From Romanomermis culicivorax (Eukaryota > Nematoda > Enoplea > Mermithida > Mermithidae), in the NCBI GenBank assembly GCA_963922205.1, contig CAWUHX010000227.1, positions 549,193-613,192 of the forward strand: DNA of 64,000 bases, read 5' to 3'. Shown piece by piece: positions 45,862 to 54,800 of this stretch. The notes beneath the pieces are model-generated. The model did no database searches and was not told the DNA's origin. It saw only the letters and a list, made by a program, of their open reading frames with translations. Each line of letters begins with the position of its first letter. Position 1 is the first letter of the stretch. Made by a program: the position numbers and the translations under genes.

Positions 45862-48800
45862 ATGAAGTCGGATGTTGACCAAGAAATTCTAGAATCGAAG
45901 AAAAGGGAGCTCGAATTATCGATCGATAGTTGCAAAGAATTGATTCTACAAAATTTTCAGAACAACGACGAAGATGCGCAGCAGAAAAATACACTTTTAG
46001 TTAAAGAATTGATAGAACTGAGGAAAAATCTCCATGAGTTACGGGTGAGTTTATGCTGAAAAAGTCGAGCGATTGCATATTCTATTGATATTTAAGAAAA
46101 ATGCAAAAAGTATCCAAATTTTATTCAGTGAATTCTTCAATGTTACCTTTTCGGTAGAAGGTTACTTCGTAAAAGCTCAGTTCAGTTTGTCAAATCTGCA
46201 CGTCACAATGGCCTTGACGGAATTTTTGTCCAAAACCTGAACATTATTCCGTAGATAACACTCCCTTTTCTAGGAAGGCGATGATCTTGACACGGGCAAC
46301 ATACGATGTTGTGGCCACAAATTTTTAGTGAAAAATCGACGCGAATCGTTAGTAGCAGCTAATCGATTTTGCGATAAATGCGGCCAAATAATTTGGTCGA
46401 TTTTACAACCTTTTTACCAATGCAAATATTGCGGCTATTATTGTCATCCGAAATGTTTAGGCGTGGTCACTCGTACGTGCGCTTACGTCAAGGTTCTAAT
46501 ATTTGCATCCATATTTACTAATTTTCTTTCCAAAAATGTGAACACTGATTTCAGGCTAACGAAGAAACAACGTATGAATTGACTATTTGCCCTGAAAAAG
46601 GTTTGGGTGATCAAAAATATAGATGCGCGGACTGTAAAACAAAGCTGAATATTGATCGTAAGTGGAAAGCAACTTTCTAAAGCTTTAAAACTACAATATT
46701 ACAGATCGATAGATGTACTTCTATTTTTCGAATATACGGGGAAAAGTTTCTGTCAACAAGGCGTTTTCTACGCATTTTTTCAAATTCAATTTTCGACGAA
46801 TAAATTTTATGTTTTAAAAATTTTGATAGTCGTTTCAGCTGATGACATGCAATTCGCCAATCCTCGCATTTGCGACTACGACGGTCGATATTATTGCCCC
46901 GTCTGTCATTGGGGCGACACGGCCGTTATTCCAGCTCGCGTTATACGAAATTGGGATTTTGAACTAAAACATGTAAGAAAAACAAAGCTGCCAGTTATCG
47001 CTAAGAGCGAAACTGACGGCAAATTTTTTCAACCGTGGAAAGCAGAAAATATCCGCTATTTTCAATAGTCCAAAAGAATTTCCTTCGTTTTATCAATGTT
47101 TCTTGCGAATTTATCAGTTCTGAGATATTTTAGAACTAGTTAAAACTAAAATTTTCAGGGTGGTTTCTGACCATATCCGCATTCTCTCACTCCTCGAGGT
47201 AGTGTAAGGTTCCAGCAACGGAACATAGCGGATTTTTCCAAAGTTCTTTAAACTCCTAACTAACCTTTGAAAAACTTTGCTATTAGGCTGTCAACGTGTA
47301 TGATGTATCACTTGTTTTGAAAATGTCGGTTCAGTCAAAATAAGTCGGTTATTTATAGAAGACAATGACGGCTTTCTCTCATCGGAAATAAGCTCCTACA
47401 TGGATCAGGTCAGTTCAGTAGAGGATGAAAAATATTCATTTTGTTATCAACCGACTTTGTTATGAGTAGTGTTATCGATTGTCCAATACTTTAGGGATTG
47501 ACTCAATGAAGCAACGAAATTCCTACTAGTTCGCCTTAAAAGTCCGAAAAATGTATCATAAAACAGTTATTGTTGTCTAAAAAAAGTCGAAATATTTTAT
47601 TCATGTCTGGAAGCGCCGAAGAAATTGACATTTTTGACCGATTTTTCATTCAAAAATTATCATTTTCTACCGGAAAAACGATGAGATTTCTATGACTACC
47701 CCTTTTCAGCTATATGATTCGGGAATCTTGGAAGGCGCACCATTAACATGTATGCTTTGAATGTAATGCCATCTTAAATTAACTCATAAAAACTAAAAAA
47801 TGTCAATTTTTCGGCAGAAAATATTCATTTAAAAGTAAAAATAGTCAAAAATATCAATTTTGATTCGGAATATTGATTTTAAAAGTTATGCAAAATTAAA
47901 AATTGAAAACTATAATTATTTAATCATCATAGAAAAGTTGACTAGGAGCTGTGTGAATTTTTTCTGATAGATGCTTACAAATAGATGCTTCTAAAAGTAA
48001 TTCGAAATTATGCCTTCTGATATGTTTATTGCAAGGTATACTAACATCAGGGCTGATTTGGGTCTTTTGATCACCTTGGAGTTCCTATATTATAAATTCA
48101 AAAGTACTTTGCTAAATGTCGTACTCAATAGAAGGATAAATATTTTAGTTCAGTTATGTCTATTCAAGCTTCTAGATCGGCCGTCTTTTGTCTATCGCAA
48201 GATCAATTCCTGAAGACCTGAGAATTCTGATAATAGACTATGGTCTATTTCTAAGTGAGCGATTCCCATGTGAGCGGTTCCTGATTGAGCCCATTCCCAA
48301 ATGAGCGAATTGTCAATTGGGCCACTCCAAACGAGCGATAGAGAATGTAATAATACTTTCTTCATATTTTCCTTCTTTACCTTATATTCTTCTTTGTATG
48401 TATTTCTTTTTTCTTTCGTTTTCTGTGTGTATTGTTTATGTTTTTGTTTATGTATGTTTTTGCGTTTTTATCTTTTGTTTCTGCTTTCTTTGCATTTATA
48501 TTTTGTTGTCATCTACGCTTTTTTCTTTTGTGCTCATAAAACAATACATTACAAGTTGTCATTTTTAATAAGCATTGTCTCCCATACAATTCTTATACAA
48601 TTCGGCACGCTCTATTTCCTATTTAATTTTTTCCTTTGTGATTTTTCTTCATTCTTACTTACGTTTCGTCTTCTACTTCATTATCTTTCTCTTTTTCTAT
48701 TCTCCTCATTCTTTTTTTCTTTTTTTCACATTATTTTTTGTTTCTTCCTTGCTTCTTCTTTCTTGTCACTTTTTCCTTTTCTAATGCTTTTCCACCTATT

Positions 48801-51800
48801 TTCACTTATTCTTAATGTCTTCATTTTTGTAGATTTTTCCTTTTTCTTGATGTTTTGTTTGTTCCAGCATTCTTTTATCTTTTTTTGAAGATTTTTACAC
48901 TTACAACGATGAAAGAATTGTACAAGAATTATACGGGAGACTACGGTTATTTAGAATGACAATTTGTAATGTATTGTATCATGAGGAAAAAAATAGATGA
49001 CAAGAAGGAAGAAAATGAAAGAGAACAGAGACAAAAGATGAAAACGTAAAAACATAGACAAAAGATGAAAACGTAAAAACATAGACAAACGAAAACATAA
49101 GCAATACACACATAAAACGAAAGAAAATATACGGCAAGCAAGGAAAATATGAAGGAAGTGTTATTACAATCTCAATCGCTCGTTTGGAAGTGTCAAATTG
49201 GGAATTTGCTCAATTGGGCATTCGCTAACATGAGAATACCCCATACACTAGTCAACATGATATTCAATCTTCCATAACAACAGGGAGGGTTCGGTCATTT
49301 TCCCGCCGGGTCCTATGAAGCTCGGCCGCCCGGTCGATCATCGCCTGAATGCCCCCCTCATCTAAGCTCAGTTAGGTGTATGATTCAGCCATCTAGGACA
49401 GTACGGCGCCGGCAAGTTCGTTGGCATGTATATAGGTGCGCAAACATAGGGCCGCCACTATTGTATCTTCTTATAACTTGTGCACCCGTAGAATTGATGT
49501 TTCAACCCAAAATCGGTATCACCTATTGCTGTTGTATGCAGCTCTGGTTCCTCTGCATACCGCGAATATCTTTCGCCTTTTACTAAAGATATCCGTGCAG
49601 AGGGGCGCATATGAGTATCCATTAATTTTTTGTTGCCCACTTTATGTTGGTATTATGAGTGGAGTATCGGGGTGTCTGACATATTGTGATGCCTGGAGAA
49701 GTCAGGAAATTTCGATTAGGTTTGTTATCATGTATTTGCTTCTTTGCATGGTAGACCGACTTGGCGTTTTAGAAGTTCCAAACCTCAAAATTTTCCGACG
49801 CTTCGCGCCAGCTTCGATCATTAGGAAGTCTAGCATTATTTTTGGATTGACATTTAATTGTTTCAGGGGATCTATAGTTCTATTTCGCCCCTAACTATTA
49901 ACATTTAACTTTTTCTGAAGGAGTAATTAGGATTTCAACTTTTATGCTGATGTTTGCCAATTTGATTATTGTTATAGCGTTATCAGTGACGAAGATCAAG
50001 AAACATTCTGAAAGCTTACATTTAATTACAATGTCCAGACACTGAGGGCTAGAAAAGCAGTGAGACTTATCGTTCCGATAGAAAAACGGCGCAAGCATAC
50101 TATTCTTATGTGGGACGCTTTGTATGACGTATATTTTTTTTATAAATGACGAAATTAGAACGAATTTCTGAAAGTTCCATGTGATTTAATGTGCACTGCG
50201 AAAATGCGTTTAAAAATGAGAATGATAATATTAATCAGAATCATAGAAAGATAACAAAGGACACAATCAAAAGACATGAAAAAGGGTCAAGCGGTTTACA
50301 AATGAACTTGATACTATACATGGCATATCAGAATTCCATATTTTGCTGTGCATGGTCACAACGGCTAGTGAATTTACATTTTTTCAAAATCGAATTTTTC
50401 TGACAAAGCTTTAAATACTCGATTATTGCTGGCAAAAAGTACATGCTGAAAGTTTTTGTTCAAATAGTGACTGTTTTGCTAATAAAAAAGATTTTCTGTA
50501 CCAATTTCAGTTTCAAATTATTGTGGGATTCAGCGGTCGACTGCATGATAGCGCAGAAATTAAAGAAACAGCAAATGCTTAGAAACATAAAAAGAAATGG
50601 AGAAATTAGGACTCACTCTCCTTTTTTCAAAGGTATCTAGTTTCAGAATAGCGAGTCTTTCAAAATCCGGGAAGTTTATGACATGCTTTGATGAATATTT
50701 TTGTACTTTTTCAATCATTTGGATATTAGCTAGCGAGTGCGATGATCACACAGTTATAATGTATTCGAGTAAAGGTCTCACATATACCTTGCATGGTTAA
50801 GTTTAGTACGAAAATATTATTATCAACAAAACTTCTGAAAGTATTATGAAGTCTAGAATAGGTATTTTCTACTTTTGTACTGACGTTTCATTGAGTTTCA
50901 GATTTTCCGATAACATAACACTCAAATTTTTCATACAATTTTCTGTTATGAGCAGAAGTTCATCATTAATCTTGTATCCATATTTCGGATTATTACTGCC
51001 GAACATACAAGTAATTTGGGGGAAGTGCCATTGGAACCCTCTACCTAGAAATCTTCGGCCATAGAATTTCAGTCATTGGGTGATCCCCCACAAGATATGC
51101 CAATCCTATGGCTAACCATATGGTAGTCAAAGAGACGCAGATACTTTTGGTCAGAAAAATGTCGATTTTAGAATAAAAAATGTCTTGAACAAAAAATTGA
51201 TCAAAACTGTCAAGCTTCTCAGCACATCGCGCCATGAGTACATTTTTTACGGTTTTTAGACAAAAATGACTATTTATTGAACCGTTTTTCGGGTTTTTTC
51301 TTGTGAAAAAATCGATTTTTTCCTTCACGGGTCCTCCTAAAATGTTGGCGAATCGGCGACCCCCGGCTTCAAAAAAGTCGCTTGACCTCCCTGAGACGTC
51401 AGGGCTTCGTTACACGTATGCTTCCCAGCCCAGGTACAGTTAATGACAAATTTAGCTGAAATTCTGCTGACCATATTTAGAGTACGTATGTTTCTCAACA
51501 TTAATGTGTTTCAATAAATGAAAATGTCATTTGTGTAGAGAAGTAATAAAACAATAGGTCATGCGAGTACATTAAGCATATTCATTATTCTAACGTACAC
51601 ATAAACACCAACTGTATATGCTATTTTTGGGTAGGAACGTGTTTTAGAATTTTTTTCTTATTGATGAGAAAATTTGGCTGCTTTTCACATTATCGTGCAA
51701 AAAACAGCTATTCTTAACACAAAGAAGCTGTCAAAGAGTTGAACAGAATTACCGTAAAACCACCTAACTTTGGCCATTTATTAAAGATCAATTTTAAAGC

Positions 51801-54800
51801 ATAATCAACAATAAATTGAAATACTCAGAAAACAATTGCCCAATGGATTCCGAAGTTTTAGTATCGAAAGCAGAGGCACGCGAGGATTTTGACACTGGTG
51901 CAGTGGCAAGCTTGCAAATAATATTACTGATGCTTATCCAACAAACATCTTCTTTTGAAGGCCATGGAAGCGAACGTCAAATGTTCTTCTTTACTGAAAA
52001 CTGCCGGTTTTCCTACAGGATTCATATGTTTCATCTTCATATTATTCTGTAATGTAGCCCGTGGGATTGAATAGACTTGCGAAGCTTCATTAATATTCAT
52101 TTCATCATTACGTATACTATCAGGAGCAGAAGTCAAAGTTTGATTAGAATAAGCTACGTAATTACGTTTTTAGGCATGCTGAAGCTAAGAAAGAACTGTT
52201 GAGCATTAAACCATGCATTTCAAGAGCAGGCCAAAGATAGGTGGAAAGCTGTAATTTTTTGACCTAACATTAGCCAACAAATGCAGTTAAATGAAATTGA
52301 AATGTTTCATCTGATAGCGCATCATTTAAAGTATAAGTTCAAGCAATTAGTTCAATAAAAACCTCATTAGATTCGGTATGCCTGAGGAAGTTTGTAACCT
52401 GAGAGAATGTAACAAAAAACATACCTACGGTAAAAGTCTGATATATCTACTTGAAACATAGGTTGTTGTTGATAAACACATATCACTGTTAGAACAATCG
52501 TTAAGCTTAAAAAACACTTCACGAAAAAATACCCACTGGATCCCGAGTTATGCAATAAAACAAAATACTGAAAAGTGGCTAATGTTAGGTGAAAGGTCAC
52601 AGTAGAAATACTGAAACGAAAAAATGTGGGAGCTGAAATTGACTTGTAGAAGGATAAGCACTGTAATATTTCCAGAACAAGATTATTCAGCTTACAAATT
52701 GCAGAATCGAAATACATATTTTGAAATCAACGTATTAGAATATGGCAGAATTACTTACTGATCGAAGAATCTCAATTTTTGCTTGGTTCCCCGGTTTCTG
52801 AATTTTACTTGCTTTTTTAGTCTAAAATTGATTTGACTTTTATTGTGTCGGCAATATTCAGGAAGAATGGTTGATTTCTAGTTTGTTGGCGGCACTATCC
52901 AGCTGATGGAACAACATTGGCAAATTGCTCAGGTCTCCCTATGGTGCAAACATTTTTACTATTTTATGTAGGAATTATTGATTTTAACTGCAAAATTATG
53001 AAAAAATGACCTGGAAAGTTTGGAAGAAAAATTGCTGGACGCCCTCTGTTGTACCCCTTGTCCTCGTAGTTCAGTTACGTGTGTAATTTAGCTTGTGCTA
53101 CAATTACGGAAAATAATCAAAAGTCGCCTTTACATAAGATAATGTATTGTTTTAGCACCGACATTAAAAAATAGTTATCATCTCGAATGTTCGTGGTGAA
53201 ATTTTAATCAACTCAGTTAATTTAATTATCTGAGGTAATTAATGTTGAAGTCTGAAACCAGAAAAAATTCATTTTACCGGTTTCTGCAATGCCATGTAAT
53301 ACAAGTTTTCATAATGCTCCCTGAAATGCAGTTCTTTGGTACGTACGCAAACGCAGCACCGTCACTATTATCTTTTCACAACTTATGCACCCGTAGAATT
53401 GATGTTTCAAAGTTAAATACGTATCCCGCTTTGCTTATTTAATGCAGCTCTGGTTCCTCTGCATACCGCGAATATCTTTCGCCTTTTACTAAAGATATCC
53501 GTGCAGAGGGGCGCTTATGAGTATCTATTAATTTTTCGTTGCCCGTTTCATGCGGGTATTATGAGCGCATCTGTCTGTCGAGTTGTAATCTAGAAATGTG
53601 ACACGGCGTTTTTTTGTGCACTGACATTTGTGCCAATCGCACAAAAAAATTTTTTCTACTAGAAACATACTGAAAACTGCGGAAAATTTTTAGACCAAAA
53701 TTTTGATACGTTTAACGCATTAATTTTTTGTAAAAATCGTGCCCAACTTATTTTTCAGCTAACCATGTCAGTGAGATAAGAAAAAATTGTGCAAGTAGTT
53801 CACGACGACTAAGAAAGAAATGGAATGTTGAGAGAATTTAAATAACTCTAGAATTGTTCAGGAAGTTCACATTGATTCAATTTTCGACTACGAATATAAA
53901 TAGGATATATTTAATAACAATGTAAAGACTAGAGAAAATAAAATCGAAAATTGAGTAAATCTTCGGTTGAAACATTGTAACATTACCAACGATGTCGATT
54001 TTTCTATTTGAATCAATCAAACACAAAGAAGTAAGAATTTTAGTTTCAAATCCGAAACTGACAGAATTAACAGAGAATATTCAGAATTTCTTTTCATTCA
54101 TCAGTCATTGACAGCCTATAAACTTTGCCGCAACGATATTTATACACTGTTCGAAGAGAACTCGTTCGCGTTCGGGTCAAATACGAGTAGATAAAATTAT
54201 ATTCATTGACTGCGTCGAAAATTTTTTGCATTTTCGGTACCTAAATCGTCTAAAAATCAAGGAAATTTAATGTTTGAACAGCCAAAAATTTTGTGCCAAT
54301 TGGCACAAACGCTCGAAATTTTTTGTGCCATTCCAAATTTTTTGTGCCAAAACCATGTTTGGGCCCAAAAAAGACACTGATGTGACGCTTACCCTAAATT
54401 GTAAAGCTGCATTTACTGCAAGTATGTTTTAAATGAATTTTTCTTACAATTTAAGAATATTTTCAGGTTAGTCGTCCGAGCAAGCAATTTTTGCGGGTTA
54501 TGCAAAATAAGCCGGTTTTATTATTGGAAGCCTTAAATCCTCACTTGTTCAATTACCTCAAAGAAATTCGCACAATTAAGGTAATTTAATGTATTATTAT
54601 ACATCCGTGACGGATGCAGAAAACTGATGAAAGTAAGTTCAATACGGATAAAGTTAGTAAGCTTGTTGATGTAATCAATAGAAAAAATTTTGGTTTACGA
54701 CCGGTGAGAAACAACCTGATAAGTTCCCTCGATAACCTGATCAGATCGTCAAAAATTCTTAAGAAGTGCATCAAGTTATCGAAACAGTTCTATCTGGATC

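Follow-up and report, generated by a model that had tools for sequence, protein, structure and literature searches.

Two probable U5 small nuclear RNA genes with a shared proximal sequence element in a predicted DEF8-like intron of Romanomermis culicivorax

Introduction

In Caenorhabditis elegans, the proximal sequence element (PSE/UM1) of non-coding RNA (ncRNA) genes is described as a 21-bp core with two sub-motifs 5 bp apart, occurring at about 10% of some 1,400 ncRNA loci; most loci are TATA-less, and short ncRNA loci are frequently intronic (PMC2527325). Across nematodes, Beltran et al. 2019 (PMC6436959) predicted motifs of the small nuclear RNA (snRNA)-activating protein complex (SNAPc) in the 100 bp upstream of Rfam-annotated snRNAs, and the text of that paper gives Romanomermis culicivorax a motif with a conserved 5′ half and GTTTC kept in the 3′ half. 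The same text reports that R. culicivorax lost its PIWI-interacting RNAs (piRNAs), and argues that the nematode piRNA promoter was derived from the snRNA element. Here we describe two U5 snRNA genes of R. culicivorax and the PSE upstream of each, which lie in a 64,000-nt stretch of contig CAWUHX010000227.1 (positions 549,193 to 613,192, forward strand; assembly GCA_963922205.1), referred to below as the window.

We conclude, with a probability of roughly 0.9, that each of the two loci is an intact U5 gene of RNA polymerase II (Pol II) with its own promoter, nested co-directionally in an intron of a DEF8-like gene. The genes themselves are ordinary, but they yield a testable definition of the PSE for a nematode of the early-branching Clade I. 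It is 21 bp long, ends 34-37 nt upstream of the RNA and is shared by five RNA classes.

Two full-length U5 genes share an exact upstream element

The features of the two loci are as follows (window coordinates; evidence in brackets).

49484-49504, + strand: PSE of U5 copy 1, ACCCGTAGAATTGATGTTTCA, 18/18 consensus positions (alignment, window scan, scoring)
49539-49652, + strand: U5 snRNA gene copy 1, one mismatch in the 3′ hairpin (RF00020, 84.9 bits; pair counts)
49624-49632, + strand: Sm-type site of copy 1, AATTTTTTG (sequence, alignment)
49635-49651, + strand: 3′ hairpin of copy 1, GCCCAC/GTTGGT, with a C-U mismatch (sequence, alignment, pair counts)
53389-53409, + strand: PSE of U5 copy 2, the same as that of copy 1 (alignment, window scan, scoring)
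53445-53559, + strand: U5 snRNA gene copy 2 (RF00020, 88.2 bits)
53530-53538, + strand: Sm-type site of copy 2, AATTTTTCG (sequence, alignment)
53541-53557, + strand: 3′ hairpin of copy 2, all paired (alignment, pair counts)

Both copies match the Rfam U5 model RF00020 from end to end (model positions 1-117 of 117) with scores about twice its gathering score of 40 bits. Their RNA bodies are 94% identical across 124 nt, and loop I and both main helices are the same in the alignment; five of the eight positions at which the two RNAs differ fall within the 3′ hairpin. RNA positions 71, 82 and 93, together with that hairpin, tell the two copies apart. Among eight distinct U5 copies, loop I is invariant and helix 3 has 98.4% of its cells paired. 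The 3′ hairpin of the same eight genes is paired in 97.9% of cells; two of the genes show a double change from GC to AU, and the sole non-pair is pair 101-112 of window copy 1.

Upstream, the 21-nt element is exact in both copies and lies inside an exactly shared block of 25 nt, TGCACCCGTAGAATTGATGTTTCAA. It ends 34 nt before the U5 start in copy 1 and 35 nt before it in copy 2, and this spacer is poorly alike in the two copies. A scan of both strands of the window for sites with at least 14 of the 18 fixed positions returned those two only, and the 30 nt behind the PSE hold no TATA-like word at either gene. For two copies 3.9 kb apart, the most plausible reading is a local duplication that kept the PSE and the RNA body while the rest diverged.

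These results uphold what a first-pass annotation, made from the sequence alone, had proposed for the two loci: that they are U5 genes, to be checked with a covariance-model search; that loop I, the main stems and an Sm site are kept; that the differences between the copies concentrate in the 3′ hairpin, mismatched in copy 1 and fully paired in copy 2; and that a block upstream was kept while its surroundings diverged.

The same element precedes other snRNA genes

We searched the genome (359,112,060 bases in 595 contigs) for further snRNA genes, and found at least 9 matches to U5, 5 to U1, 18 to U2 and 2 to U4, these counts being lower bounds because the family search scores its best candidates only. 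For U2, the PSE was scored at the six of the 18 matches with an intact U2 5′ end; the other 12 had no such end and were not scored. Two U3 genes were retrieved through the PSE pattern and then confirmed with Rfam, and hence carry lesser weight. U5 loci in this genome number at least nine and are dispersed, the window pair among them.

The distance from the PSE to the model-defined RNA start is nearly constant, at 34-37 nt in all 24 genes (9 U5, 5 U1, 6 U2, 2 U4 and 2 U3). Scores reach 16-18 of 18 positions at nine of nine U5 loci and at five of five U1 genes; the six U2 genes score 12, 13, 15, 15, 15 and 17, the two U4 genes 17 and 11 (the latter with a 1-nt shift) and both U3 genes, found by the pattern itself, 18. 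As a control, other parts of these loci were scored in stretches of 110 positions: of 465 such stretches, 16 had a top score of at least 12, and none went above 13.

TATA-like words were sought from a short list and within 30 nt behind the PSE, with a strict PSE pattern that dropped two of five U1, two of six U2 and one of two U4 genes; none was found in the three U1, four U2 and one U4 genes that passed. In the two U3 genes (L009 and L033 in our numbering of loci) the PSE is exact, and a TATA-like word follows it at 8 nt. Transcription of U3 by RNA polymerase III (Pol III) was considered and not adopted: TTTT occurs inside the RNA, and no T-run lies within 70 nt of its end. The second U4 gene (L063, 64.9 bits) has a 3′ part that looks replaced by an inverted repeat, with no clear Sm site. 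U6 was not found genome-wide with RF00026, a 40-nt core (up to 3 mismatches), a 107-nt DNA query or a 22-nt core (up to 3 mismatches), in searches that had no positive control, and it may be missing from the assembly.

The first-pass annotation had named absence of the block from other snRNA genes as grounds for giving up its reading, and had proposed to look for it before U1, U2, U4 and spliced-leader (SL) RNA genes. The element stands before the U1, U2, U4 and U3 genes that were scored; as to SL RNA, it occurs in a multi-copy family that resembles SL RNA. The proposal of a candidate PSE for this lineage therefore holds in that the element is shared by five RNA classes at a fixed distance, but it is probably not new: the PSE is most likely a re-finding of the element already reported for R. 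culicivorax, as the text of Beltran et al. 2019 describes it. A search of one literature collection on R. culicivorax and snRNA returned nothing beyond that paper.

The spread of the element across RNA classes also bears on whether the two window copies are retrocopies or dead pseudogenes, with an upstream block that is identical merely through recent duplication. We consider this unlikely. The hairpin mismatch of copy 1 would fit such a fate, as would the many odd U2 copies in the genome, where the U2 5′ end is present in 6 of 18 matches. However, the PSE is exact in both copies whereas the spacer and flanks are not, the RNA bodies are full length with their main helices intact, and the element lies at the same distance before U1, U2, U4 and U3 genes; nor would an upstream promoter travel with a retrocopy.

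If the two loci are instead working Pol II genes, as we prefer, SNAPc would bind the 21-bp PSE, ACCCGTAGNNTTNATGTTTCA, and place Pol II so that each copy is transcribed from a start about 34-36 bp downstream of the element. The U5 transcript would then receive the Sm ring on AAUUUUUYG and enter the U4/U6.U5 particle. Binding, polymerase type, transcription of each copy and Sm assembly are here predictions from sequence features.

The predicted host intron

The U5 pair lies inside a predicted intron of 7,494 bp, from GT at 46973 to AG at 54466, delimited by exon reading and splice sites.

46973-54466, + strand: predicted intron of the DEF8-like host gene, GT...AG, 7,494 bp (exon reading, splice sites, protein domains)
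54467-54580, + strand: predicted DEF8 exon closing the intron, VSRPSKQFLRVMQNKPVLLLEALNPHLFNYLKEIRTIK (exon reading, splice sites)

The host protein, joined by hand from exon pieces predicted from sequence, contains a Rubicon homology domain (E 5.4e-47) and a C1 domain. We take the host to be DEF8, on the assumption that human DEF8 has this same make-up. Host and both U5 genes are all on the + strand, in agreement with the co-directional nesting in a 7.5-kb DEF8 intron that had been proposed. Farther upstream in this intron, before U5 copy 1, window positions 48288-49226 hold a tandem duplication of 27 bp and nested long inverted repeats whose arms measure 136, 79 and 78 nt.

Co-direction with the host is what would be expected if U5 were processed from the spliced DEF8 intron, like many snoRNAs (small nucleolar RNAs), and had no promoter of its own. 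An exact PSE nevertheless stands at the right distance before each copy, and seven other U5 loci carry the PSE too, which makes processing from the intron extremely improbable.

PSE-like sequence is abundant in repeats

The 18-nt core of the PSE occurs 2,360 times in the genome with up to three mismatches, against 49 times for its reversed control, and a restricted form of the full motif, ACCCGTNNNNNTNATGTTTCAHD, occurs exactly 1,245 times, against once for its control. By eye, the 30 best loci comprise 13 in a repeat A, 3 in a repeat B, 5 in a family C, 3 U5 genes, 2 U3 genes and 4 others. Exact sites were grouped for the first 100 of the 1,245 (on our contigs C1-C10); among these 100, 63 fall into three recurrent groups, namely a family F (22), four types of multi-gene cassette (31) and a family G (10).

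This abundance is the ground for supposing that the block beside each U5 is a piece of a transposable element or satellite and not a promoter. Sequences like the block recur far more often than the reversed control allows, and 16 of the 30 best loci sit in repeats A and B. Against this, the snRNA genes share with those repeats the 21-bp element only, at 34-37 nt and without the rest of either repeat, and it is more likely that repeats carry a promoter element than the reverse. We regard a repeat origin of the block as very unlikely.

Several observations count against reading the window pair as intact U5 genes with their own promoters. PSE-like sequence is abundant in repeats, and the PSE alone is therefore no proof of a working gene. 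Of the two, copy 1 scores lower in bits and is the one whose 3′ hairpin is mismatched, and covariation in U5 is weak because the main helices hardly vary. Three of the 24 PSE scores (12 and 13 at U2, 11 at U4) are inside the control range; for the two low U2 sites and the second U4 site, the support is position and likeness to relatives, not score. Two near-identical U5 genes (L002 and L003) have TATAA 17 nt behind the PSE, so the lack of a TATA box at U5 genes is not absolute. Some duplications in the assembly are described as artefactual (PMC10879605), and the nine U5 loci may therefore be an overcount.

Repeats A (L012, L013, L016, L019, L022, L024-L028, L030, L032, L036, L073, L075 and L080-L083) and B (L018, L029, L038, L071, L072, L074, L078 and L084) are short and dispersed, each with an internal PSE-like sequence. 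Repeat B starts with TGTGACG or TGTCACG, and several copies end in TTACA or GTCACA, resembling short terminal inverted repeats. A transposon nature of the two repeats was not adopted: the ends look alike, and target-site duplication is not established. Family F (L087-L090) has the commonest exact PSE 23-mer, accounting for its 22 of the 100 sites listed, and is dispersed with conserved downstream sequence. At one locus (L034), units of about 94 bp are repeated in tandem, and their consensus includes a PSE-like sequence on the minus strand. Four PSE sites lie within 65 kb at L097-L100 (C4:2926420-2990830), three of them without a TATA-like word; at L097, ACAATTTTTGAC precedes a small hairpin and resembles an Sm-class RNA. 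The PSE is also carried by L015, L023, L031, L095 and L097-L102. A piRNA-like reading of the PSE sites is not favoured, with 63 of the 100 listed sites recurrent and downstream sequence conserved in the copies fetched. That more than 1,200 full PSE sites exist, many in dispersed families, raises the questions of what role those RNAs have and by what route the element spread.

Candidate small-RNA families behind the PSE

Family C (L014, L017, L021, L035, L037 and L065-L070) is the multi-copy, PSE-bearing family that resembles SL RNA, a resemblance we offer as a lead only; 3 of its 11 copies entered the TATA scan. The splice-donor-like GTAAAC lies 61 nt behind the searched motif in three copies (L014, L037 and L067) and at 17 in L069, GTTAA occurs in four other copies, and 8 of the 11 have an ATTTTG-type Sm-like site at 124-126. 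The distance from donor to Sm site is 65 nt, outside the default range of 20-60 given for SLIDR (PMC7986045).

Each cassette holds as many as six genes with a PSE, spaced mostly at 256-345 bp, and their order is repeated at several places; examples are L085 (C9:547600-549600) and L086 (C1:1561000-1563400). A TATA-like word lies 13-19 nt behind the PSE in 14 of 14 cassette rows and in 7 of 7 rows at family G loci, the latter including one additional site on the opposite strand. Taken with the snRNA genes, this pattern resembles, at the level of sequence, the familiar division of snRNA-type promoters into those of Pol II and those of Pol III. At L085, five of six RNAs are about 90-130 nt long, with a long terminal stem running directly into a T-run. 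We rejected T-run ends in general as proof of Pol III, given that TTTT occurs in 14 of 16 folded stretches and is frequent by chance in an AT-rich genome, and used a T-run only where it directly follows the terminal stem, as in those five genes.

A 20-nt core found in 11 of the 14 cassette rows occurs 394 times in the genome, with none for the control. Comparing 50 of 100 listed cores (C1-C9) with the 36 of 100 listed PSE sites that lie nearby, we found 20 cores in sense at +85/+87 from a PSE, 9 in antisense at +66/+67 (family G) and 21 without a listed PSE. Many members of families G (L091-L094 and L103) and E (L085/L086) are complementary over about 20 nt or more, and their RNAs could pair over that length. 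The best pair among 6 G and 8 E stretches reaches -52.2 kcal/mol, against -20.2 +/- 3.6 for 100 shuffles. Three results speak against such pairing: the CGGCATGATG-type gene does no better than shuffles, the gene at L085:1647 pairs weakly and is equalled by some shuffles, and for L104 with one G member a shuffle beat the real pair. The complementarity could stem from common descent by inverted duplication, without function.

Our broader reading of these families is tentative, and we hold it to be possible rather than probable. The PSE may have spread far beyond snRNA genes, with more than 1,200 exact copies, many before multi-copy small-RNA families. Among these, E (about 90-130 nt, stem-bulge-like) and G (a hairpin of about 45 nt), each with a PSE followed by a TATA-like word, the arrangement of snRNA-type promoters used by Pol III, might form a sense/antisense pair controlled by a single transcription factor; this worm is reported to have lost piRNAs.

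Comparison with known systems

Set beside the RF00020 U5 family, both window copies share the full-length match, loop I, the main helices, the Sm site and the 3′ hairpin, and they differ from it in nothing notable, apart from a single mismatched pair in the variable 3′ hairpin of copy 1. The cassette RNAs share with nematode stem-bulge RNA (sbRNA)/Y RNA (PMC4450293) a predicted terminal stem with a one-base bulge, a terminal T-run, and a PSE with a TATA-like word. They differ in having no Rfam match, in that single-sequence folds show no bulged cytosine and in having UUAAUC where sbRNA/Y RNA has the loop motif UUA(U/C)C, and we did not assign them to that class.

For the PSE itself, the closest system is in the same species. 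The element defined here ends in ATGTTTCA and agrees with the GTTTC of the R. culicivorax motif of Beltran et al. (PMC6436959), a comparison made with the description in their text, which gives no base-by-base motif or genome-wide count for this species. The exact form of the PSE and its distance from the RNA are useful in a lineage reported to lack piRNAs, because the piRNA promoter is argued by those authors to come from this element. Compared with the C. elegans PSE/UM1 as described (PMC2527325), the length of 21 bp, the two sub-motifs 5 bp apart and the lack of a TATA box at most loci are shared, whereas in R. culicivorax a single restricted form alone has 1,245 exact sites, not all of which are necessarily genes.

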